From an uncultured Cetobacterium sp. (GTDB taxonomy: Bacteria > Fusobacteriota > Fusobacteriia > Fusobacteriales > Fusobacteriaceae), in contig NZ_CAMTIK010000013.1 of the NCBI RefSeq assembly GCF_947072685.1, positions 1 to 55,039 of the forward strand: DNA of 55,039 bases, written 5' to 3'. Every line of letters starts with the position of its first letter. The stretch's first letter is position 1. Below the pieces are notes generated by a model. That model had not been told where the DNA came from. It saw nothing but the letters and a program-made list of their open reading frames with translations, and made no database searches. Below are positions 5,989 to 20,796 of the stretch, piece after piece. The position numbers and the translations under genes were made by a program.

Positions 5989-6045
5989 AAATTAATTCAC
6001 ATAAAAATAGATACCACTTCTCTGTGACATTTATAGTATAAGTTC

Positions 6046-6115
6046 TACCCATAGCGTCTTTATTTAAGGCAAAGACGTAGAAACTATTGGACCATATCTC
6101 CAAAATATATGAGTA
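6046..6115 (-). promoter_or_regulatory. purine riboswitch aptamer, guanine/hypoxanthine class (C74)
   Basis: Minus strand order: P1 TACTCATA, J1/2, P2 with L2 ATATGG, J2/3 AGTTTCTAC, P3 GTCTTTG, L3 CCTTAAA, P3' TAAAGAC, J3/1 and P1' TATGGGTA. P1 pairs over 8 bp. The L2 GG and L3 CC needed for the kissing loop are present. The ligand-discriminating base just before UAUGGG (plus-strand g at 6054) is C on the transcript, the guanine/hypoxanthine/xanthine specificity rather than the U of adenine riboswitches. It controls the amidohydrolase and permease genes. Confidence 0.95.
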
Positions 6116-6137
6116 AACTTTTTTATTCTTTTAATTA

Positions 6138-6240: not shown

Positions 6241-7257
6241 ATGAAAAAAAAATCACTTCTTTTTATATTTTTTATTTCAACCTTTATTTTAAGTAGTTGT
6301 AGTGCACTTATGACCTCTATTGGAGATAATAAAATACACAACGCTATTGAAGTATATAAATATAAAGGGCTCACTACCGATGGTATGCTAGATCTTATCT
6401 CTGGTTTAGATTATTCTCCTAATTCAATTATTGGAATAAATGAATTTAAAAAGCAATACCAAGAGATTACTTCTATTAAAAATAAAATTTTAATTAAAAC
6501 AAATTATACTGAAGCTGATATTAATGCCTTAAAATTATATTTACTTACAGTTGAAGAGTTTAAAAAAATTAATCCTAAAATTCCAACTATACATATTGAT
6601 TATATATCTTTTAGCAACTCCAAATCTAATATTGTCAAAGTCTTTGAAAAGTATGTCGAAAAAGATGAACGTTTTGGACTTGATCGATATGCAAAAATCC
6701 AAAAAATTAATTTCTATAAATCTTTATTAAAGTATAATAATAGTTATACCATTTCCAGTATAGTTAAAGACTTCGAAAATCAAGTTAGTATAAATTTATA
6801 CATACGGAGTTCTTTTAGAGGATTTTCACAACTTGATACACTTGTTAATAATTCGCTTATTTCTGCTGCTGATCGAAATCTCAATAGAGATCTTGGAAAC
6901 TATACTTTCTTTAAAGGATATACCTATATTTCTCCTGTGAATTCTCATAATTATTTTATTGATATTGTCTTTAACGATATTGATATTGTAACTCTTGAAA
7001 CATCTACAGATGAAATTAATGGAACAAAAATATTTTCTAAAAGAAAAAAAATATTCATAAGTGGTGTTTATAAAGTATTTAACAGTTCTCCATTCCCTAG
7101 TATAAAACCATTTGCTTTTAAAGAAACTTATACTATCAAAACAAAGCAAAATGATAACTCTACTTACTATGAAGACGAAAGAGATATTTTAAGAAAGATC
7201 TTAGAAAATAAATTTTCTGATATAATAAGATATGATATAAAAAATCTGAGGCTATAA
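6241..7257 (+). CDS. lipoprotein of unknown function
   Basis: 338 aa with ATG 6 nt after GGAGG. A lipoprotein signal sequence ends in the lipobox LSSC (C20), predicting lipid anchoring to the inner or outer membrane. The mature part is lysine-, isoleucine- and asparagine-rich without recognisable motifs or further membrane segments. It is a single-gene unit with its own extended -10 promoter and a terminator overlapping its stop codon. I do not recognise the family and assign no function. Confidence 0.75.
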   Translation: MKKKSLLFIFFISTFILSSCSALMTSIGDNKIHNAIEVYKYKGLTTDGMLDLISGLDYSPNSIIGINEFKKQYQEITSIKNKILIKTNYTEADINALKLYLLTVEEFKKINPKIPTIHIDYISFSNSKSNIVKVFEKYVEKDERFGLDRYAKIQKINFYKSLLKYNNSYTISSIVKDFENQVSINLYIRSSFRGFSQLDTLVNNSLISAADRNLNRDLGNYTFFKGYTYISPVNSHNYFIDIVFNDIDIVTLETSTDEINGTKIFSKRKKIFISGVYKVFNSSPFPSIKPFAFKETYTIKTKQNDNSTYYEDERDILRKILENKFSDIIRYDIKNLRL

Positions 7258-12398: not shown

Positions 12399-13124
12399 AT
12401 GAAAATAATTTTTTCTCCCAGCAAGGGAATGAAATATAGAAAATTTACAAATTTAAATACAGAGAAACAGATGCTTTTCCCTGAAAAAACAGAAAGACTA
12501 GTCGATTCTCTGCAAAAGCTATCAAAATCTGAATTAGGAATAGCTCTAAAAATTAAGGGTTCTCTTTTAGATGAAACCTTTATTCGCTATAATAATTTTT
12601 ATACGCTCCCAAAATATAAAGCAATTGAGCTCTATAATGGTGTGAGTTTTAGCCATTTGCAACCAGAGGAATACTCATTAGAAAATATAGAGTACTTAAA
12701 AAATCATCTCACAATATTTTCTGCTCTTTACGGTATTCTCTCTCCTGAAACTTTAATACATCCATATCGACTAGATATGACTGCAAAAATTGAAGATTTC
12801 CATCTTTATAGTTATTGGAAATCTTCAATTGAATTTTTTTTTGAAAAAGATGAATGTATTATCAATCTAGCTTCTTCTGAATTTAGTAAGCTACTGGATA
12901 GAAAAAGATACCATATTATAGATATCGAATTCCGACAAAGTTATGATGGCCTTCTTAAAAATATAAGTACTGAGGCTAAGAAAATGAGGGGTAAACTACT
13001 AAATCATCTTGTAAAAAACCAAATTGTTAATTTAGAACTTTTAAAAAGCTTTTCTCTAGATGGATATTTATTCTGTAAAACACTTTCAAAAGATAATAAA
13101 CTTTTTTTTGTTAAATTAAAGTAA
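12399..13124 (+). CDS. yaaA: YaaA-family peroxide-stress protein
   Basis: 241 aa, usual length for the family (PF03883). Diagnostic motifs are SPSKGM at 7-12, LYNGVSF, LTIFSALYGILSPETLIHPY and the C-terminal region after IDIEFRQSYDG. E. coli YaaA lowers free intracellular iron during hydrogen peroxide stress and can bind DNA; mechanism is not settled. ACGAGG precedes the ATG. The coding region contains a terminator-like hairpin plus T-run at 12788-12842, described separately. Confidence 0.85.
   Translation: MKIIFSPSKGMKYRKFTNLNTEKQMLFPEKTERLVDSLQKLSKSELGIALKIKGSLLDETFIRYNNFYTLPKYKAIELYNGVSFSHLQPEEYSLENIEYLKNHLTIFSALYGILSPETLIHPYRLDMTAKIEDFHLYSYWKSSIEFFFEKDECIINLASSEFSKLLDRKRYHIIDIEFRQSYDGLLKNISTEAKKMRGKLLNHLVKNQIVNLELLKSFSLDGYLFCKTLSKDNKLFFVKLK
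12788..12842 (+). other. terminator-like hairpin inside yaaA
   Basis: AATTGAAGATTTCCA (12788-12802), a 13-nt loop, and TGGAAATCTTCAATT (12816-12830) form a perfect 15-bp stem, followed after GAA by a run of nine T (12834-12842). It lies about 290 nt before the yaaA stop codon. It could cause partial premature termination or act as an RNA processing site. Confidence 0.55.
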
Positions 13125-13192: not shown

Positions 13193-13315
13193 TTTTAAAA
13201 TGAAAAGTTCTTAATTTCACTAGACAACATAGTTAAATTTTTTCAAGTGTATTTTAAGAGCAAATATTAAAAAAGTTTCAAACAAAACTTATTTTTATAA
13301 GCTTTGTTAAATAGC

Positions 13316-13382
13316 TACTCATATATATCCGCAATACGGGCGGAAGTTTCTACGACTAACCTTAAATTAGTCACTATGGGTG
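13316..13382 (+). promoter_or_regulatory. purine riboswitch aptamer, guanine/hypoxanthine/xanthine class (C74)
   Basis: Order: P1 TACTCATA, P2 TCCGC, L2 AATACGG, P2' GCGGA, J2/3 AGTTTCTAC, P3 GACTAA, L3 CCTTAAA, P3' TTAGTC, then A, C74 (13374) and P1' TATGGGTG. The GG of L2 and CC of L3 that form the kissing loop are kept. L2 differs slightly from the usual GATATGG. The C at the specificity position means guanine-type rather than adenine-type. It controls the downstream permease-XDH-xpt operon. Confidence 0.95.
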
Positions 13383-13411
13383 AAATAAATAGATTTTTAT
13401 CTAGATTTTTT

Positions 13412-13462
13412 AGATTATCTATTTTTCACTTGTAGAGAGTGAAAAACAGATAATCTTTTTTT
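13412..13462 (+). terminator. riboswitch-controlled intrinsic terminator (expression platform)
   Basis: AGATTATCTATTTTTCACT, a 7-nt loop, AGTGAAAAACAGATAATCT (19 positions, one A-C mismatch) and a T-run. The 5' arm segment ATCTATTTTTCAC is complementary, with a 2-nt bulge, to GTGAAATAAATAGAT at 13380-13394, which overlaps the aptamer P1' strand; that alternative helix is the antiterminator. Ligand-bound aptamer should therefore switch the operon off. Confidence 0.9.
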
Positions 13463-13528
13463 ATTCTCTACAATTTTTAATCCCATATATTTGAGTAAAA
13501 TTTGATAAAAATTTTAGGAGGATTATAA

Positions 13529-14848
13529 ATGAAAAAAAATAGGTCACCTTATCACTTGGATGGAGTTCCAGAACTTAAAACCGCATTACCTTTAGGGCTT
13601 CAACATATTCTAGCAATGTTTGTTAGTAATATCACCCCTATTATTATTGTTGCTGGTGTTTTAGGAATCTCATCTGAACAAAAAACACTCCTTATTCAAG
13701 CATCTATGCTTGTTGCTGGACTAAATACTCTTATTCAAGCTTATACAATTGGCCCAATCGGAGCTAAACTCCCAATCGTTGTTGGTACAAGTTTTGCTTT
13801 TGTTCCTGTTGCTATCTCAATTGGAATGAAATATGGTTTTGAAGGAGTTTTAGGCGCAGCACTTATCGGTGGCATTTTTGAAGGTCTTCTGGGTCTAGTT
13901 ATTAAAAAAGTTAGAAAATTTTTTCCTCCAATTGTTACCGGAGTTGTTGTTCTTTCAATAGGACTTTCACTTTTACCAGTTGGTATTAACAGTTTTGCTG
14001 GTGGAGTTGGAGCTGTTGATTTTGGATCTTTAGAAAATCTATTTATTGGAACCATTGTTCTTGGGACTGTTGTTTTTTTTAAGCAGTTTACAAAGGGAAT
14101 TCTGAGTACTGGTTCTATATTTATTGGTACTATTGTTGGTTTTATCATTGCTCTTATATTGGGGAAAGTTGATCTTGCACCATTGATGCAAGCTGAGTAT
14201 TTAACTATTCCAAAACCTATGATGTTTGGTTTTAGTTTTCACTTCGATGCAATACTGGCTATGGTCTTAATGTTTATAGTTTCTGCAGTTGAAACTGTTG
14301 GTGATATGTCTGGAGTTACTATGGGTGGGGCTGGAAGAGAAACCACTGATAGAGAACTTTCTGGAGGTATTCTTGCCGATGGACTTGGAAGTGCTTTTGC
14401 AGCATTCTTTTCAGTTTTACCAACAACATCTTTTAGTCAAAATACAGGTATTATTGCAATGACTGGTATTATGAGCAGATTTGTTGTTGCTACCGGGGCG
14501 ATGTTCTTAGTCATAGGAGCTTTTATTCCTAAAATTGGAGCTCTTTTCACAATTATTCCGGCCAGCGTTATTGGTGGAAGCTTAGTTATGGTATTTGCTA
14601 TGATATCTATAAGTGGAATTAATTTAATTACAAAAGATCCTCTTGTTGGAAGAAATGCAGTTATTTTGGCAGTGTCTTTAGGTTTGGGGTATGGATTAGG
14701 AAATGTTCCTGCTGCTTTAAACATCTTCCCAGAAAGTATAAAACTTATTTTTGGTGGTTCAGGTATTGTCGTTTCAGGTTCTATAGCTGTTTTTCTAAAT
14801 CTAATTCTTCCTCAAGAGGAGAAAAAAGTTGTAGAAAAAACTGCATAA
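13529..14848 (+). CDS. pbuX: xanthine/uracil-type permease (NCS2, NAT signature)
   Basis: 439 aa, 12-14 membrane helices. The NAT signature QNTGIIAMTG begins at about Q304, and the N-terminus (ALPLGLQHILAMFVSNITPI) is typical of bacterial xanthine/urate permeases of the UraA/PbuX/UacT branch. AGGAGG precedes the ATG. It is the first gene after the guanine-type riboswitch and is followed by XDH subunits and xpt, so import of xanthine (or urate/hypoxanthine) is inferred; the pbuX name rests on this context, as the sequence alone cannot fix the substrate. Confidence 0.85.
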   Translation: MKKNRSPYHLDGVPELKTALPLGLQHILAMFVSNITPIIIVAGVLGISSEQKTLLIQASMLVAGLNTLIQAYTIGPIGAKLPIVVGTSFAFVPVAISIGMKYGFEGVLGAALIGGIFEGLLGLVIKKVRKFFPPIVTGVVVLSIGLSLLPVGINSFAGGVGAVDFGSLENLFIGTIVLGTVVFFKQFTKGILSTGSIFIGTIVGFIIALILGKVDLAPLMQAEYLTIPKPMMFGFSFHFDAILAMVLMFIVSAVETVGDMSGVTMGGAGRETTDRELSGGILADGLGSAFAAFFSVLPTTSFSQNTGIIAMTGIMSRFVVATGAMFLVIGAFIPKIGALFTIIPASVIGGSLVMVFAMISISGINLITKDPLVGRNAVILAVSLGLGYGLGNVPAALNIFPESIKLIFGGSGIVVSGSIAVFLNLILPQEEKKVVEKTA

Positions 14849-14873
14849 ATTTTATTTAATTGGAGGTTTTAAT

Positions 14874-15668
14874 TTGTTTGCTTTTTCAAATTTTTTTTTA
14901 GCACCATCTCTTGATGTTGCCTATTCAGAATTATTAAAAAATAAAAAAAATATAATTCTTGGCGGAACTTCTTATTTAAGAATGGGAAATACTTCTTGGA
15001 ATACTGCTATTGATATTTCTAACTTAAATCTTAACTATATTGAAGAAAAAGATGACTTCATTACTATTGGTTCTATGACTAATTTTAGAGATCTTGAGAC
15101 AAATCATATTTTAAATACTTATTTTGGTAACATTTTTAATATAGCTCTTAAAGATATTATTGGCGTACAATTCAGAAAAAATGTTACTGCTGGAGCAACT
15201 GTTTTTAGTAAGTATGGTTTTTCTGATTTGATTCCTGTTTTACTTGCTCTTGGAACTAAAATAAAGCTTTTTGCTGGCGGTATTGTTACTTTAGAAGATT
15301 TTCTAAAAGAAACCACTGTAAGACAAGATATCTTAGTGGAGGTTTTAATTCCTAAAATTAAAACTGTATGTTCTTTTCAAACCGTTAGAAAAAGTAAAAC
15401 CGATTACTCTATTATAAATTTAGCCATTTGTAACAATAAAAACAACATATCTATAGCTGTTGGCTCTAGACCAGGAAGAGCTGTCCTAGCCAAAGAAACC
15501 ATGAGTATCTTGAATAATAGTGATAACCTAGAACTTTCTATCATTGATGCTTTAAAACATATTAGTGAGGAGATATCTCTAGATTCAAATATGAGAAGCT
15601 CTAAAGTTTATAGAGAACTTCTTTTAACCGCATTATTAAAAAAAGGCATTCAGGAGGTTTTAAAATAA
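14874..15668 (+). CDS. xdhB: xanthine dehydrogenase, FAD-binding subunit
   Basis: 264 aa from a TTG start 7 nt after GGAGG; there is no nearer ATG. FAD-binding domain of molybdopterin dehydrogenases (PF00941) followed by the CO-dehydrogenase flavoprotein C-terminal domain. The FAD pyrophosphate loop is visible as ILGGTSYLRMG and NVTAGATVFSKYGFSDLIPVL. The subunit passes electrons from the 2Fe-2S subunit to NAD or another acceptor. The order FAD - FeS - Mo differs from E. coli xdhABC but is common in anaerobes. Stop codon and next start are tightly spaced. Confidence 0.87.
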   Translation: MFAFSNFFLAPSLDVAYSELLKNKKNIILGGTSYLRMGNTSWNTAIDISNLNLNYIEEKDDFITIGSMTNFRDLETNHILNTYFGNIFNIALKDIIGVQFRKNVTAGATVFSKYGFSDLIPVLLALGTKIKLFAGGIVTLEDFLKETTVRQDILVEVLIPKIKTVCSFQTVRKSKTDYSIINLAICNNKNNISIAVGSRPGRAVLAKETMSILNNSDNLELSIIDALKHISEEISLDSNMRSSKVYRELLLTALLKKGIQEVLK

Positions 15669-16133
15669 ATGTTATTAACTACTACTATAAATAATAGAAA
15701 AAAAGAACTACTTATAAAAGATGATGAATATTTAGTTGATACTCTTAGAAGTGCAGGATATTTAAGTGTTAAAAAAGGGTGCGATACTGGCGCTTGTGGT
15801 CTTTGTACTGTTCTCTTAAACGACTCTCCTATTCTATCTTGCAGTACACTTTCTGCTAGAGTTGAAGGTAAAAAAATCTCTACTATTGAACATTTCCCAA
15901 AAGAAGCTAAACTTTTTGCTTCTTTTATGACTCAAGAAGGGGCTGAACAATGTGGCTTTTGTTCACCAGGTTTCACCCTTACTGTTATTGCTATGATAAG
16001 AGAGTTAAAAAATCCAAGTGATGATGATATTATGCACTATTTAAATGGTAACTTATGTAGATGTAGCGGATATGTTTCACAACTTAGAGCTATAAAAAAA
16101 TTTATGGAGGCGATTAAAAATGAAAATTGTTAA
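15669..16133 (+). CDS. xdhC: xanthine dehydrogenase, 2Fe-2S subunit
   Basis: 154 aa. All eight cluster cysteines are present: C38, C43, C46 and C58 for the plant-ferredoxin-type cluster and C95, C98, C130 and C132 (CGFCSPGF ... CRCSGY) for the second 2Fe-2S cluster near the molybdopterin. It shuttles electrons between the Mo and FAD subunits. The next gene starts inside this one (14-bp overlap), implying translational coupling. The symbol follows E. coli usage; in other systems xdhC denotes a chaperone. Confidence 0.92.
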   Translation: MLLTTTINNRKKELLIKDDEYLVDTLRSAGYLSVKKGCDTGACGLCTVLLNDSPILSCSTLSARVEGKKISTIEHFPKEAKLFASFMTQEGAEQCGFCSPGFTLTVIAMIRELKNPSDDDIMHYLNGNLCRCSGYVSQLRAIKKFMEAIKNENC

Positions 16134-18372
16134 TACCTCTGTTCCAAAAATTGATGGTATGGGACTTGTTAGTGGTTCGCCCTCTTATACTGACGATTTA
16201 GTTTTGAATAACAATGTTCTTATTATAAAGCTTTTAAGATCTCCACACGCTTTTGCTAAAATTAACTCTATCGATACTTCTATCGCTCTTAAAGTTCCAG
16301 GAGTAGAAGCGATCTATACCCACGAAGACACTCCTAAAACACGATTTACTCTTGCTGGACAGGGCTTTCCTGAACCATCACCCTATGACAGAAGAATACT
16401 TGACGAGTATGTTCGATATGTTGGTGACCCTGTGGCTATTATTGCTGCTGAAGATGAAAAATCTGCTGAAAAAGCTATGAAACTTATAAAGATTAACTAT
16501 GACGTTTTAACTCCTATTTTAGATTTTGAAAAAGCTATCGATTCAGATACAATTATTCATCCAGAGGATGTGCATACAAACTTTGAGATAGGTTATGAAA
16601 AAGAAAGAAATATAGTTTCAAAAGCCTATGATGAAAAACCTGGTGTGGATGAAGGGTTTGCAAATAGTGATATTATTTTAGAAAGAACCTACTACACACA
16701 ACCTCAAATTCATGCCATGATGGAAACATATAGATCATACAGCTATTTTGATTCTAATGAAAGATTAACTACTATTACCTCTACACAAATACCTTTTCAT
16801 GTTAGAAGACACCTTGCAAGGGCTTTAGATGTTCCTAGTAGTAAACTTAGAGTTATCAAACCTAAAGTTGGAGGTGGCTTTGGTGGTAAACAAACTGCTG
16901 TATGTGAAATATATAGTGCTTTTGTTACGCTAAAGACAGGAAAACCTTCTAAAATTATATATAATAGAAAGGAAACCCATACTTGTACAACGACAAGACA
17001 CGCTATGAGACTTGATGTTAAAATTGGTGCCGATTTAGAAGGAAACATCAAAGCTATTGATATAAACACTCTATCAAACACAGGGGCCTATGGCGAACAC
17101 GCTCCCACAGTTACATCTCTGGTTTCATATAAAACTTTTCCTCTTTATGAAAAAGTTCCAATGAGATTTAATGCTCACATAGTCTATACAAATACTATGA
17201 ATGCTGGAGCTTTTAGAGGTTATGGAGCTACACAAGGAACTTTTGCCGTAGAGTCCATAATCAATGAATTAGCACATAAGCTAAACCTTGACCCATCTGA
17301 AGTCAGAATGAAAAATTTAGTTGAACCTGGAGAAGGGAAGTACATAAGTAGTGGCGATATTAAAAAGTGTGTAGAAATTGGAAAAGAAAAATTTAACTGG
17401 AATGAAAAATTCATTCCTAAAGAAGTTGCTTCTAACAAGATTAGAGCTGTCGGAATGGCTGTTACTATGCAAGGTTCTGGAATAGCAGGCATTGATACTG
17501 CTGCAGCTACAATTAAATTAGGTGATCGTGGAGATTTTACTCTTATGATTGGTGTTACTGAAATGGGACAAGGATGCGATACAATCTTAACACAAATCGC
17601 TGCTGAAGTTCTAGAAATTCCTATGAGTAAAATTGTTATTCATACTGCTGACACCGATATTTCTCCATATGACCCTGGGGCTTATGCTTCAAGTGGAACA
17701 TATGTCACTGGAAATGCAGTGATCATCGCTGCTAATAAGATGAAAGAAGAGATTTTAAAAGGCGCTTCTAAAATGTTTAATGTTGATATAGATTCTATTG
17801 AATACCTAGGAGACACTATTAAATTTGAAGATAAAATTATCTCTTTAGAAGAGTTTGCTCAACGTTCAATATCTTTTGAAGGTATGAATCAAATCACTAC
17901 TACTGGAACTTGGGGCGGTGATACTTCACCTCCACCTTTTATTGCAGGATTTGCCGAAGTTGAAGTGGATACCTTAACCGGAGAAGTTGTGGTTACTGAC
18001 TATCTTTCTGTTGTTGATTGTGGAACTCCTATAAATCCTAACCTTGTTAAAGTTCAAGTTGAAGGTGGAACTTCTCAAGGAATAGGTCTTGCACTTTTTG
18101 AAGATATAAAGTATGATAAGAAAGGAAGAGTTATCTCCGATTCATTTATGCAATATAAGATACCTTCTAGAATAGAATGTAAAAAAATTAGAGTTGAATT
18201 CTCAAATTCATATGAAAAAACAGGTCCTTTTGGAGCTAAATCAGTTGGTGAAGTAGTTATTAATACTCCTGCTCCAGCTATTATAGATGCCATTTATAGA
18301 GCCACAAAAGTAAGGGTTAGAGACCTACCCGCAACTTCTGAAAAAATTCTTATGGGAATTCTAAATATATAG
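16120..18372 (+). CDS. xdhA: xanthine dehydrogenase, molybdopterin-binding catalytic subunit
   Basis: 750 aa, same size as E. coli XdhA. Aldehyde oxidase/xanthine dehydrogenase a/b hammerhead at the N-terminus, then the Mo-pterin domains: GGGFGGK at about 251, GAFRGYG with R366, the MGQGCDT loop, ASSGTYVTG and the catalytic glutamate E711 in GAKSVGE. It hydroxylates purines such as hypoxanthine to xanthine at the Mo centre. The adjacent YqeC-like gene hints that the Mo ligand may be a labile selenium instead of sulfur. Whether the end product is xanthine or urate cannot be told from sequence. Confidence 0.9.
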   Translation: MKIVNTSVPKIDGMGLVSGSPSYTDDLVLNNNVLIIKLLRSPHAFAKINSIDTSIALKVPGVEAIYTHEDTPKTRFTLAGQGFPEPSPYDRRILDEYVRYVGDPVAIIAAEDEKSAEKAMKLIKINYDVLTPILDFEKAIDSDTIIHPEDVHTNFEIGYEKERNIVSKAYDEKPGVDEGFANSDIILERTYYTQPQIHAMMETYRSYSYFDSNERLTTITSTQIPFHVRRHLARALDVPSSKLRVIKPKVGGGFGGKQTAVCEIYSAFVTLKTGKPSKIIYNRKETHTCTTTRHAMRLDVKIGADLEGNIKAIDINTLSNTGAYGEHAPTVTSLVSYKTFPLYEKVPMRFNAHIVYTNTMNAGAFRGYGATQGTFAVESIINELAHKLNLDPSEVRMKNLVEPGEGKYISSGDIKKCVEIGKEKFNWNEKFIPKEVASNKIRAVGMAVTMQGSGIAGIDTAAATIKLGDRGDFTLMIGVTEMGQGCDTILTQIAAEVLEIPMSKIVIHTADTDISPYDPGAYASSGTYVTGNAVIIAANKMKEEILKGASKMFNVDIDSIEYLGDTIKFEDKIISLEEFAQRSISFEGMNQITTTGTWGGDTSPPPFIAGFAEVEVDTLTGEVVVTDYLSVVDCGTPINPNLVKVQVEGGTSQGIGLALFEDIKYDKKGRVISDSFMQYKIPSRIECKKIRVEFSNSYEKTGPFGAKSVGEVVINTPAPAIIDAIYRATKVRVRDLPATSEKILMGILNI

Positions 18373-18380
18373 GAGTGATT

Positions 18381-19655
18381 ATGGTTGAACTTTTTAATAT
18401 TGATAAAGGGGATATCGTTTCTATTACGGGAGCTGGCGGAAAGACATCTTTAATGTTTTTTTTAGCAAATTCTCTTTCTGAAAAAGGAACTGTTCTTATC
18501 ACAACAACTACAAAAATTTTCAAACCAAAAGATACAAAGAAAATTAAATTAATTTTTATAGGTCCTGAGGAGATTCACTCTATATCTCCTCAGGATAATT
18601 ATATATATCTCTATTGTCCAAATATTATAGATAATAAAATACAAAGTGCTTCCTTTGAAGACGTTAATAAATTAAAGAGTAAATTTGATTATATTCTTAT
18701 TGAAGCTGATGGGAGCTCTGGTAAATCTTTGAAAGGATGGAAAGAAAATGAGCCACAAATACTTAGTATATCAACTAAAACTATTGCTGTTATTGATATA
18801 ACTACTTTAGGGGAGGTCAAATCTGAATCAACTATTCACAGATTTAATTTATATACAGAGCAATTTCTGCAAAACTCTACTTCAATCACCAAAGAGGATA
18901 TTATTAACTATATTGATAGGGAGGTCTTTTTTAAAAATTCTAAAGGTCAAAATATTATTTTCTTCAATAAAATTGAGTCTCTTAAATTTTTTGAATATTT
19001 TTTTGAGATTGCAAATTCTATAAAAAGTAACAATATCTATTTTGGTTCTGTCTTTAACAGCTCTATCTCCAAATTTAAAAATATTACCGCTATTATTTTA
19101 GCGTCTGGATTTTCAAAGCGTTTTGGAACAAATAAACTGGATATAAAATTAAAAAACAAAATGACTCTTTTAGAGCATGTTCTCTTTAATGTTACACAAC
19201 TACAATTTAAAGAGAAAATGCTTATTGGAAAAGATTATCTATACCTAAATCTTGCTCATACTTATGGTTTTAAATATCTAGAGAATATTTTTTCTCACTT
19301 AGGACAAAGTCAAGCCGTAGTTTTAGGTACTAAATTTGCTACTCTCGATGGTTTTATTTTTATTCCTGGAGATATGCCTTTTTTAACTAAATTTTCTCTT
19401 CTTAAAATCATTTGGAAATTTCAAATACACAATAAAATTATTGTTCCATTTGTAAATAACCAAAAATATGCACCTGTTTTATTTCCTAAAAAATACTCTA
19501 AAAATTTATTGGAGCTCAAAGGTGATTCAGGGGGAAGAGAGATTCTAAACAAAACTTGTTTTATTAAATGTACGTTTGAAAACTCAATTGAGTTTTTTGA
19601 TATAGACACAAAAGAAGATTTAAAATTATTAGAAATATCGGAGGAAATTTTATGA
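18381..19655 (+). CDS. YqeC - MocA fusion: selenium-dependent hydroxylase accessory / molybdopterin nucleotidyltransferase
   Basis: 424 aa from ATG 7 nt after GGAG. Residues 1 to about 225 match YqeC, the putative selenium-dependent molybdenum hydroxylase accessory protein (P-loop-like GAGGKTS at 17-23, EADGSSGKSLKGW). Residues from about 236 match the MobA/MocA NTP-transferase domain (LASGFSKRFGTNK and FIPGDMPFL), which adds CMP to molybdopterin. In many bacteria these are separate genes. The fusion lies directly after the catalytic XDH subunit and overlaps xpt by 4 bp, which fits dedicated XDH cofactor maturation. The labile selenium role comes from family knowledge, not from this sequence. 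Confidence 0.82.
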   Translation: MVELFNIDKGDIVSITGAGGKTSLMFFLANSLSEKGTVLITTTTKIFKPKDTKKIKLIFIGPEEIHSISPQDNYIYLYCPNIIDNKIQSASFEDVNKLKSKFDYILIEADGSSGKSLKGWKENEPQILSISTKTIAVIDITTLGEVKSESTIHRFNLYTEQFLQNSTSITKEDIINYIDREVFFKNSKGQNIIFFNKIESLKFFEYFFEIANSIKSNNIYFGSVFNSSISKFKNITAIILASGFSKRFGTNKLDIKLKNKMTLLEHVLFNVTQLQFKEKMLIGKDYLYLNLAHTYGFKYLENIFSHLGQSQAVVLGTKFATLDGFIFIPGDMPFLTKFSLLKIIWKFQIHNKIIVPFVNNQKYAPVLFPKKYSKNLLELKGDSGGREILNKTCFIKCTFENSIEFFDIDTKEDLKLLEISEEIL

Positions 19656-20218
19656 AATTATTAAAAGAATATATTGAAAAATATGGAGCTGTTACTGATA
19701 GTTCTATTCTTAAAGTGGATAGTTTTATCAACCACCAGATTGATCCTATTCTTATGATGGAAATCGGTGAAGAGTTCAAAAATCGTTTTAGCGATAAAAA
19801 AATTAATAAAGTTTTAACTATTGAAGCTTCTGGTATTGCTATTGCTATTGCTGTTGCTTATGCTTTAAAAGTTCCCATGGTTTTTGCTAAAAAGAAAAAA
19901 CCTTCAACTATGGGAGAGGCTTACAACGCAACTGTTCACTCTTTTACAAAAAAAACTGACTATAATATAACTGTTTCAAAAGAGTTTTTAACTTCTCAAG
20001 ATAATGTCTTAATTGTCGATGATTTTTTAGCTATGGGAAATGCCATTATAGGGCTTAAAAATATTGTTGATGAAGCCGGCGCTACTGTTGCTGGTATTGG
20101 TATTGCTATTGAAAAAGGATTCCAACCTGGAGGAGAGATATTAAAAAAGCAAGGGCTACATCTTGAGTCCCTTGCTATAATAGATTCTTTAGAAAATAAT
20201 CAAATCACTCTTAGATAA
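19652..20218 (+). CDS. xpt: xanthine phosphoribosyltransferase
   Basis: 188 aa, the usual Xpt length. PRPP-binding motif VLIVDDFLAMGNA at about 115-127 and the Firmicute-type N-terminus (KEYIEKYGAVTDSSILKVDSFINHQIDP) identify Xpt, which converts xanthine plus PRPP to XMP, a direct precursor of GMP. GGAGG lies 7 nt before the ATG, and the start overlaps the upstream stop by 4 bp. As the last gene of the riboswitch operon it gives a sink for xanthine produced by XDH or imported by the permease. Confidence 0.93.
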   Translation: MKLLKEYIEKYGAVTDSSILKVDSFINHQIDPILMMEIGEEFKNRFSDKKINKVLTIEASGIAIAIAVAYALKVPMVFAKKKKPSTMGEAYNATVHSFTKKTDYNITVSKEFLTSQDNVLIVDDFLAMGNAIIGLKNIVDEAGATVAGIGIAIEKGFQPGGEILKKQGLHLESLAIIDSLENNQITLR

Positions 20219-20220
20219 AT

Positions 20221-20796
20221 TTATTTAACTAAGGCTGGTAAAAGACCTAATATTGTAAATACAATTACAATCATTAGGTTTTTTTTTATCTCTTTTCTAT
20301 AAATTTTAGATTCATTTAAAATGTTTTTATTTTTATAATCTCTGCTCCAATTTATATACCCAATCGTTGAAGCTAATAAAAATCCTATTGTGAAACATAA
20401 TAGATCTGCAAAATCATAAGTGCCTATAAAAGTCCCATGTCCACCATAGCTATTTTGAAAAAACTCTAGGCCTATCATGAAAAAAAATATTATATTAAAT
20501 ACCTTCTGAGCAGTTTTGTAAAAAATTCTATTATGAAGCATCGCTACACCAAATGAAAAAATCCACAATCCATCTGGCAAAGAATAAATTATCCAATTTG
20601 GAATATATTTTCTATAGACCCACACACTTTTCCTTATATCCTCCACTAGATAGTTCAAATGTGCAACTTCTATAAATTTATAATAAAACAGTTTTCTACT
20701 TCTAAACAAAAGGTATATTATAACCCCAAGTGAAAAGGAGAATAATACTAAAACAATTTTATTTAGTAGCCTCTTTTCCATAAATACCTTTTTCAT
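20221..20796 (-). CDS. membrane protein of unknown function
   Basis: 191 aa (or 186 aa from the second ATG at 20781, which has AAAGG 7 nt upstream and is the better start). About four to five hydrophobic segments. A loop with LPDGLWIFSFG and a following FADLLCFTIGF resemble the layout of VanZ-like membrane proteins, but the match is too weak for a family call. It overlaps the 3' end of mnmH and is therefore translated with it. Possible function unknown. Confidence 0.65.
   Translation of the reverse strand: MKKVFMEKRLLNKIVLVLFSFSLGVIIYLLFRSRKLFYYKFIEVAHLNYLVEDIRKSVWVYRKYIPNWIIYSLPDGLWIFSFGVAMLHNRIFYKTAQKVFNIIFFFMIGLEFFQNSYGGHGTFIGTYDFADLLCFTIGFLLASTIGYINWSRDYKNKNILNESKIYRKEIKKNLMIVIVFTILGLLPALVK
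20245..20288 (+). terminator. terminator of the xanthine/XDH operon
   Basis: ACCTAAT, an internal region that can itself form a small stem, ATTAGGT, then ten T. It lies 27 bp after the xpt stop and inside the 3' coding end of the converging minus-strand gene. Confidence 0.7.

Follow-up and report, generated by a model that had tools for sequence, protein, structure and literature searches.

Why should a xanthine dehydrogenase (XDH), an enzyme filed as degradative, stand under a guanine-class riboswitch between a purine permease and a xanthine phosphoribosyltransferase (Xpt)? The question is raised by a locus in an uncultured Cetobacterium sp. (RefSeq assembly GCF_947072685.1), whose genome (G000; 2.15 Mb, 99.8% complete) contains the window analysed here, a stretch of 55,039 nucleotides that forms contig C13 (NZ_CAMTIK010000013.1). 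The answer that the sequence favours, probable although not firm, is that the operon at 13299-20288 is a guanine-repressed xanthine-supply unit, in which hypoxanthine and/or urate would be converted to xanthine and then to xanthosine monophosphate (XMP), from which GuaA would make guanosine monophosphate (GMP).

The operon is a single plus-strand unit consisting of an aptamer, a terminator-containing leader, pbuX, the XDH FAD, 2Fe-2S and molybdopterin (Mo) subunit genes, a YqeC-MocA fusion gene, xpt and a terminator. The first gene, pbuX (13529..14848), encodes an NCS2 permease of the xanthine type (PF00860) that lies narrowly over the TIGR03173 cut-off (415.7 against 414.15 bits). The XDH genes follow at 14874..15668 (FAD subunit, TTG start; PF00941 and PF03450 over cut-off, under all equivalog cut-offs), 15669..16133 (2Fe-2S subunit; PF01799 and PF00111 over cut-off) and 16120..18372 (Mo subunit; PF01315, PF02738 and PF20256, with XdhA_XDHase as the best NCBIfam model). 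The expected FAD, 2x2Fe-2S and molybdopterin domains were thus found in all three subunits, and the Cys ligands of both 2Fe-2S clusters are visible by eye in the translation. The YqeC-MocA fusion (18375..19655) scores 132 bits with TIGR03172 (cut-off 73) and 121 bits with TIGR03310 (cut-off 186), and its true start could be the ATG at 18381. The last gene, xpt (19652..20218; 256.8 bits against 164.45), is the sole match above the TIGR01744 cut-off in the host genome, and is closed by an intrinsic terminator at 20245..20288 on the plus strand (hairpin 20245-20279, -11.4 kcal/mol, z -5.4, followed by U9). The initial annotation had described an NCS2 permease, three XDH subunits, and YqeC-MocA with a terminator-closed xpt behind a C74 purine aptamer of the OFF type; each of these parts is indeed present in that order.

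The aptamer (RF00167; 13299..13396, plus strand) scores 67.3 bits, where the gathering score is 37. Its P1 5' strand starts at 13316, J2-3 reads AGUUUCUAC at 13345 and C74 lies at 13374. U51 is retained and neither J2-3 nor J3-1 contains an insertion, which together with C74 places the leader in the Guanine-I class; the key residues are as named in the available part of PMC9295807. Covariation across 46 distinct rows showed two-sided changes in 17 of 19 pairs, with 92.3% of cells paired and slid controls at no more than 48.2%, in an alignment that was fitted to the covariance model and is hence biased towards it. Downstream of the aptamer an intrinsic terminator hairpin with a U tract (13412..13463, plus strand) folds with -20.4 kcal/mol (region 13407-13470, z -5.2), and none of 200 shuffles was equally stable. 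The P1 3' strand (from 13374) can alternatively pair with 13423-13435 to form an antiterminator (13374..13435, plus strand), for which the best duplex has -12.9 kcal/mol and shuffled sequences average -7.5 (z -3.1, p 0.010).

Folding of the growing transcript gave the expected exchange between the two structures. P1 is kept until about 13425, the antiterminator takes the P1 3' strand when the RNA ends between 13435 and 13445 (-34.3 against -27.7 kcal/mol at 13441, in favour of the antiterminator), and P1 returns with the terminator once the terminator 3' arm has been made (RNA ends 13455 to 13465). With the leader read to the U tract, the P1-plus-terminator fold has -40.1 kcal/mol and the antiterminator fold -38.1, a gap within 2 kcal/mol, and for RNA ending at 13475 the antiterminator form is again obtained by minimum energy alone. 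The two folds are mutually exclusive, so that a ligand holding P1 would give termination. These models support an OFF expression platform of guanine-class design, with guanine as the putative ligand and OFF as the predicted polarity in the cell.

If this arrangement is more than a local accident, it should recur in relatives. Sixty-one Fusobacteriaceae genomes were searched with the Mo subunit (E <= 1e-60) and 42 gave matches, comprising 37 at 61% identity or more (group A), four at 50-52% (group B) and a distant one at 30% in G002. Comparison of the locus across these relatives, the check that the initial annotation had proposed, placed the riboswitch ahead of the operon in 35 of 35 testable group A loci; the loci of G023 and G060 were left out because their contigs are too short to hold the leader. 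The aptamer was found in none of the three testable group B loci (G029, G031 and G035; the contig of G032 is too short). In 22 of the 37 group A genomes xpt lies directly downstream of the XDH genes, and unlinked xpt genes have an aptamer of their own in six of 13 testable genomes, a count that leaves out G057 (xpt contig too short) and G060 (no xpt over cut-off). The mutually related G040, G041 and G042, together with G052, carry the aptamer directly on the XDH genes, with neither pbuX before nor xpt after them. The wiring of riboswitch to XDH is a trait of the clade; the idea that XDH had entered a permease-xpt operon by chance was considered and rejected, since the linkage holds clade-wide.

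Some of these leaders have features of their own. In G048 (L088) two aptamers occur in one operon, at 1447-1544 before pbuX and at 6769-6866 between the Mo subunit gene and xpt. The automatic terminator search returned a poor terminator or none for leaders L077, L079, L083, L085, L086 and L087, and the terminator that it proposed for L078 is implausible; these leaders may act on translation. In the genus g4 leaders (L077, L079, L083, L085 and L086) the aptamer lacks a clear terminator and some carry a CTCCTA element; its complementarity to the ribosome-binding site suggests that control in some of them may be translational.

The linkage extends beyond the family. A search of named genomes gave 27 loci, seven from Fusobacteriaceae and 20 from elsewhere, and the aptamer model was run on 19 of the latter (L065, a distant fragment, was excluded). 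The aptamer lies just upstream of the FAD gene in six of the 19, namely five Bacillota loci (L046-L050), in which the riboswitch stands straight on XDH and pbuX follows, and one Calditrichales metagenome-assembled genome (L061). Two loci (L053 and L063) have it on a pbuX more than 3 kb from the XDH genes, and the aptamer-model search detected none in the remaining 11. The loci in which the aptamer sits directly on XDH, in G040-G042, G052 and the five Bacillota, indicate that XDH is itself a direct target of the switch. Moreover, in a maximum-likelihood tree of 55 Mo subunits one branch (support 98/96) separates 40 sequences, 39 with an aptamer on the operon (L044 being the sole exception), from 15 with none; the tree is midpoint-rooted and the loci were found via the window protein, so that sampling favours relatives. 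L046-L050 and L061 also share a conserved stretch, CTTTGCTCGAGT, which lies in the terminator loop region about 65-83 bases 3' of the aptamer and in most loci continues with AGA. It is complementary to the P1 3' strand, and shared descent, transfer or misbinning could each account for its presence in both Bacillota and the Calditrichales genome.

Where the xanthine would go is suggested by the rest of the purine regulon. The host genome has eight RF00167 matches, two of them in the window; the other six precede purE-purK, a second pbuX-like permease, guaA (820 bits), an amidohydrolase and two NCS2 permeases, one of which is behind a U74, adenine-type aptamer. Both guaA and purE-purK are behind guanine-type riboswitches. 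Xpt and GuaA, on the two sides of XMP, are thus both under guanine-type aptamers, and on physiological grounds nothing speaks more strongly for an operon directed towards GMP, with a predicted flux to this nucleotide.

The selenium markers indicate what kind of enzyme is being regulated. According to the available text of PMC2276186, YqeB, YqeC and SelD mark selenium-dependent Mo hydroxylases, SelD serving other selenium uses too. When the 41 XDH-positive Fusobacteriaceae genomes (groups A and B) were set against the 20 XDH-negative ones, YqeB was over cut-off in 40/41 vs 2/20 (Fisher p 2.6e-12), YqeC in 40/41 vs 1/20 (p 1.3e-13) and SelD in 40/41 vs 6/20 (p 2.3e-8), p values that overstate independence because the genomes are related. 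The misses (G023 and G057) are incomplete genomes, and the SelD gene of the host has an in-frame TGA. This co-occurrence suggests that the XDH of the operon is probably selenium-dependent.

The host also holds genes for purine breakdown, at another place. YgfK was over cut-off in 0/61 Fusobacteriaceae genomes; the idea drawn from this, that the host genome is without urate breakdown, was rejected, as SsnA is found in 24 of the 61, the host included, and contig C26 carries a uricolytic cluster that looks complete. This cluster (L135, 5892-17604) comprises diaminopropionate ammonia-lyase (ygeX, 658 bits), YgeY (509), SsnA (620), a pbuX-type permease (445), a UacY-like amidohydrolase, a DHO_dh-like protein and a selenium-dependent XDH (983 bits against a cut-off of 830) that is cut by the contig end. 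The C-terminal piece of the uricolytic XDH is on contig C15 (L139), beside a hyuA-like amidohydrolase gene, and the whole cluster, dihydropyrimidinase included, is intact in G008 (L137). A gene for a sigma-54-type regulator adjoins the cluster, and the aptamer search of the host genome placed no purine aptamer on C26 or C15. None of SsnA, YgeX, YgeY, HyuA and their partners is next to XDH in the window operon. We read this as a division of labour, with breakdown by the uricolytic cluster and xanthine supply by the window operon; the same layout also allows XDH to act as a feeder for the cluster.

Together, these results suggest the following model. When guanine is plentiful it would bind the aptamer, hold P1 and block the antiterminator, so that the terminator stops transcription; when it is scarce the antiterminator would form and the whole operon would be read. 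PbuX would then import xanthine and perhaps related purines, and XDH would add further xanthine by oxidation of hypoxanthine and/or, in these presumed anaerobes, by reduction of urate. Xpt would trap xanthine as XMP, which GuaA, itself behind a guanine riboswitch, would convert to GMP. YqeC-MocA would help to complete the molybdenum and probably selenium cofactor of XDH.

A number of observations weigh against this model. None of the XDH equivalog cut-offs is reached (Mo subunit 632 vs 780 and 600 vs 916, 2Fe-2S subunit 128 vs 217, FAD subunit 40 vs 310), and because all subunits score under them the enzyme is classed as XDH-family rather than as a proven XDH, with its substrate and direction predicted. 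Scores of this kind would also suit a different N-heterocycle hydroxylase that merely rides along in a permease-xpt operon, and the nearest solved structure by sequence is a 4-hydroxybenzoyl-CoA reductase (329 bits). Such a passenger is nonetheless very unlikely, given that XdhA models are top-ranked (632 and 600 bits, the next at 520) and that the riboswitch has nothing but XDH genes directly behind it in some genera, while in Clostridia XDH is the first gene set that it meets. As regards the switch, several Fusobacterium-type leaders gave no clear terminator in the automatic search, the antiterminator test was marginal for Clostridia-type leaders (p 0.000 to 0.525 over six loci), and unlinked xpt is without its own riboswitch in seven of the 13 testable genomes. 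The aptamer itself could in principle sense xanthine and turn the operon ON, since xanthine-II aptamers are guanine-class variants located 5' of XDH and purine-breakdown genes and are ON-like in the accessible part of PMC9295807. This identity was rejected and is the least probable of the alternatives: xanthine-II is distinguished by insertions in both J2-3 and J3-1 and by an altered position 51, none of which occurs in the leader, where J2-3 is AGUUUCUAC and a plain AC of J3-1 precedes P1, and the fold is of the OFF type, contrary to the xanthine-II architecture. Finally, the host genome has guaB (IMP dehydrogenase, 632 bits) and hpt (hypoxanthine-guanine phosphoribosyltransferase, 226.6 bits). 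Hypoxanthine should therefore already reach GMP via inosine monophosphate (IMP), which makes the XDH route extra or redundant; an obligatory bypass of IMP dehydrogenase was accordingly rejected.

The remaining alternatives concern the direction in which XDH works. The host lineage is anaerobic, and XDH may run mainly in reverse, from urate to xanthine for Xpt. This is a real but minor possibility and, with the same regulation, a sub-case of the xanthine-supply model, although its chemistry is the opposite of the oxidation proposed in the initial annotation. It is in keeping with the pbuX-type NCS2 permeases present in both the window operon and the uricolytic cluster, and with published chemistry: the available text of PMC12507026 describes gut bacteria in which XdhA carries out the reduction of uric acid to xanthine, and the entry of uric acid into purine salvage through XdhABC in E. 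coli. On the other side, nothing in the sequence fixes the direction, and PbuX is only just above its xanthine permease cut-off. A less probable arrangement is that XDH makes urate for the uricolytic cluster and that the guanine switch merely shuts purine entry when guanine is plentiful. The gene content of C26 and C15 would suit this, and SsnA is commoner with group A XDH (23/37 vs 1/24 other genomes), a distribution that fits a catabolic partner too and is a further point against the supply model. However, 14 of the 37 group A genomes keep this XDH and lack SsnA, and 11 of the 14 are 90% complete or better, which indicates that the operon is independent of uricolysis. Breakdown induced by its substrate would not be expected to come with a guanine OFF switch or with xpt on the same transcript, and the cluster has its own XDH-family enzyme, permease and adjacent sigma-54-type activator and no riboswitch.

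Overall, xanthine supply for XMP remains the preferred reading, in a form that modifies the initial annotation. Its proposal of a GMP-directed salvage route shut by guanine keeps the backing of the OFF leader, the clade-wide linkage, the downstream xpt and the guaA riboswitch, and is qualified by guaB and hpt, which leave the route dispensable, and by the uricolytic cluster. Its 'route through oxidation' has an equally possible counterpart in urate reduction, and either would yield xanthine for Xpt. The view that XDH is wired for salvage and not degradation agrees with the guanine-switched operon, and an idea of this kind had already been put forward for E. coli XDH.

The cofactor gene adds a more speculative level. 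The single YqeC match of the host genome lies inside the guanine-switched operon. Ten Cetobacterium-group genomes have the operon, and the same holds for nine of them, the host included, the exception being G005 with its two copies; of the six among the ten that are SsnA-positive, five rely on this single YqeC copy. It is conceivable, although rather unlikely, that the whole of selenium-dependent purine chemistry is gated by guanine, which would act on the salvage XDH and, provided that the selenium-type XDH of the uricolytic cluster needs YqeC as well, on that enzyme through shared cofactor maturation. If so, salvage and breakdown would both be set by one RNA switch via a shared cofactor step; this reading would be undone if expression were leaky or if maturation had a second route.

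Other features of the window and the regulon may be noted. A second guanine-class riboswitch in the window (6032..6132, minus strand; C74, OFF-type fold, 75.3 bits, antiterminator p 0.010, terminator -15.6 kcal/mol) leads an amidohydrolase gene (5918-4548, minus strand), whose nearest solved relative is a methylthioadenosine/adenosylhomocysteine deaminase, and an NCS2 permease gene (4529-3204, minus strand). On contig C7 (L101, 9294-9197, minus strand) the P1 3' strand of the U74 adenine-type aptamer runs into the AGGAGG ribosome-binding site of the NCS2 permease gene, making it a candidate adenine OFF switch at the level of translation. On contig C25 (L102, 3242-4788) the start listed for the amidohydrolase open reading frame falls within a guanine-class aptamer; translation probably begins further downstream, at a point from which the protein opens, as judged by eye, with a lipoprotein-like signal. 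Around the XDH operon, a YaaA-like gene (12399-13124) lies upstream and the gene after the terminator is convergent. A generic terminator scan missed both the leader terminator and the post-xpt terminator that direct folding shows, flagging a site inside xpt instead, and no promoter is named because the generic promoter scan gave no excess over shuffles (3 sites vs 3.4).

The locus thus offers a clade-wide, testable case of an enzyme filed as degradative that an RNA switch appears to have wired for salvage. The wiring suggests that these anaerobic gut and marine bacteria use XDH for guanine nucleotides and not for waste, and it appears to connect the sensing of guanine with maturation of the selenium cofactor. 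Such organisms could be misread by annotation pipelines, and by models of gut urate, in which XDH is taken to form urate.

How far this departs from known systems can be judged from five comparisons. Xi et al. in 2000 reportedly described a role of E. coli XDH in purine salvage, so that XDH in salvage is not new as an idea, which limits the novelty of the present model. The E. coli XdhABC operon is not known to have a guanine riboswitch or xpt. That enzyme is likewise proposed for salvage rather than breakdown in the available text of PMC12507026. A second comparison is with the xpt-pbuX type of B. subtilis and C. difficile, in which the same guanine-class OFF riboswitch stands on a xanthine permease and Xpt (PMC11477304, in part); the window operon differs in having XDH and a maturation gene inside. 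Four guanine-class OFF riboswitches, on xpt, guaA and two permeases, are given for C. difficile in the accessible part of the same report, whose table has no XDH gene under a purine riboswitch. The xanthine-II riboswitch on Paenibacillus allB/XDH genes likewise places a guanine-class scaffold before XDH genes, and differs from the window leader, as far as the available text of PMC9295807 goes, in its pocket, its xanthine ligand, its ON polarity and the degradative genes that it serves. The reductive uricolytic cluster of the C. difficile type (PMC12507026, in part) has its counterpart in the host genome on C26 and C15, where no riboswitch was found, and the window operon is separate from it. 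Selenium-dependent molybdenum hydroxylases (Haft and Self 2008), including that of C. difficile (2024), are likewise accompanied by YqeB, YqeC, MocA/YgfJ and SelD (PMC2276186, in part); those described in the available portions of PMC11448449 and PMC2276186 are degradative and no purine riboswitch is mentioned there, whereas the window enzyme is riboswitch-linked. No report of a guanine-I riboswitch on XDH was found in the open-licence literature searched. Set beside these systems, what is new here is the co-occurrence of this XDH with YqeB, YqeC and SelD, the presence of a separate, riboswitch-free uricolytic cluster, and the location of the sole YqeC gene inside a guanine-switched operon.

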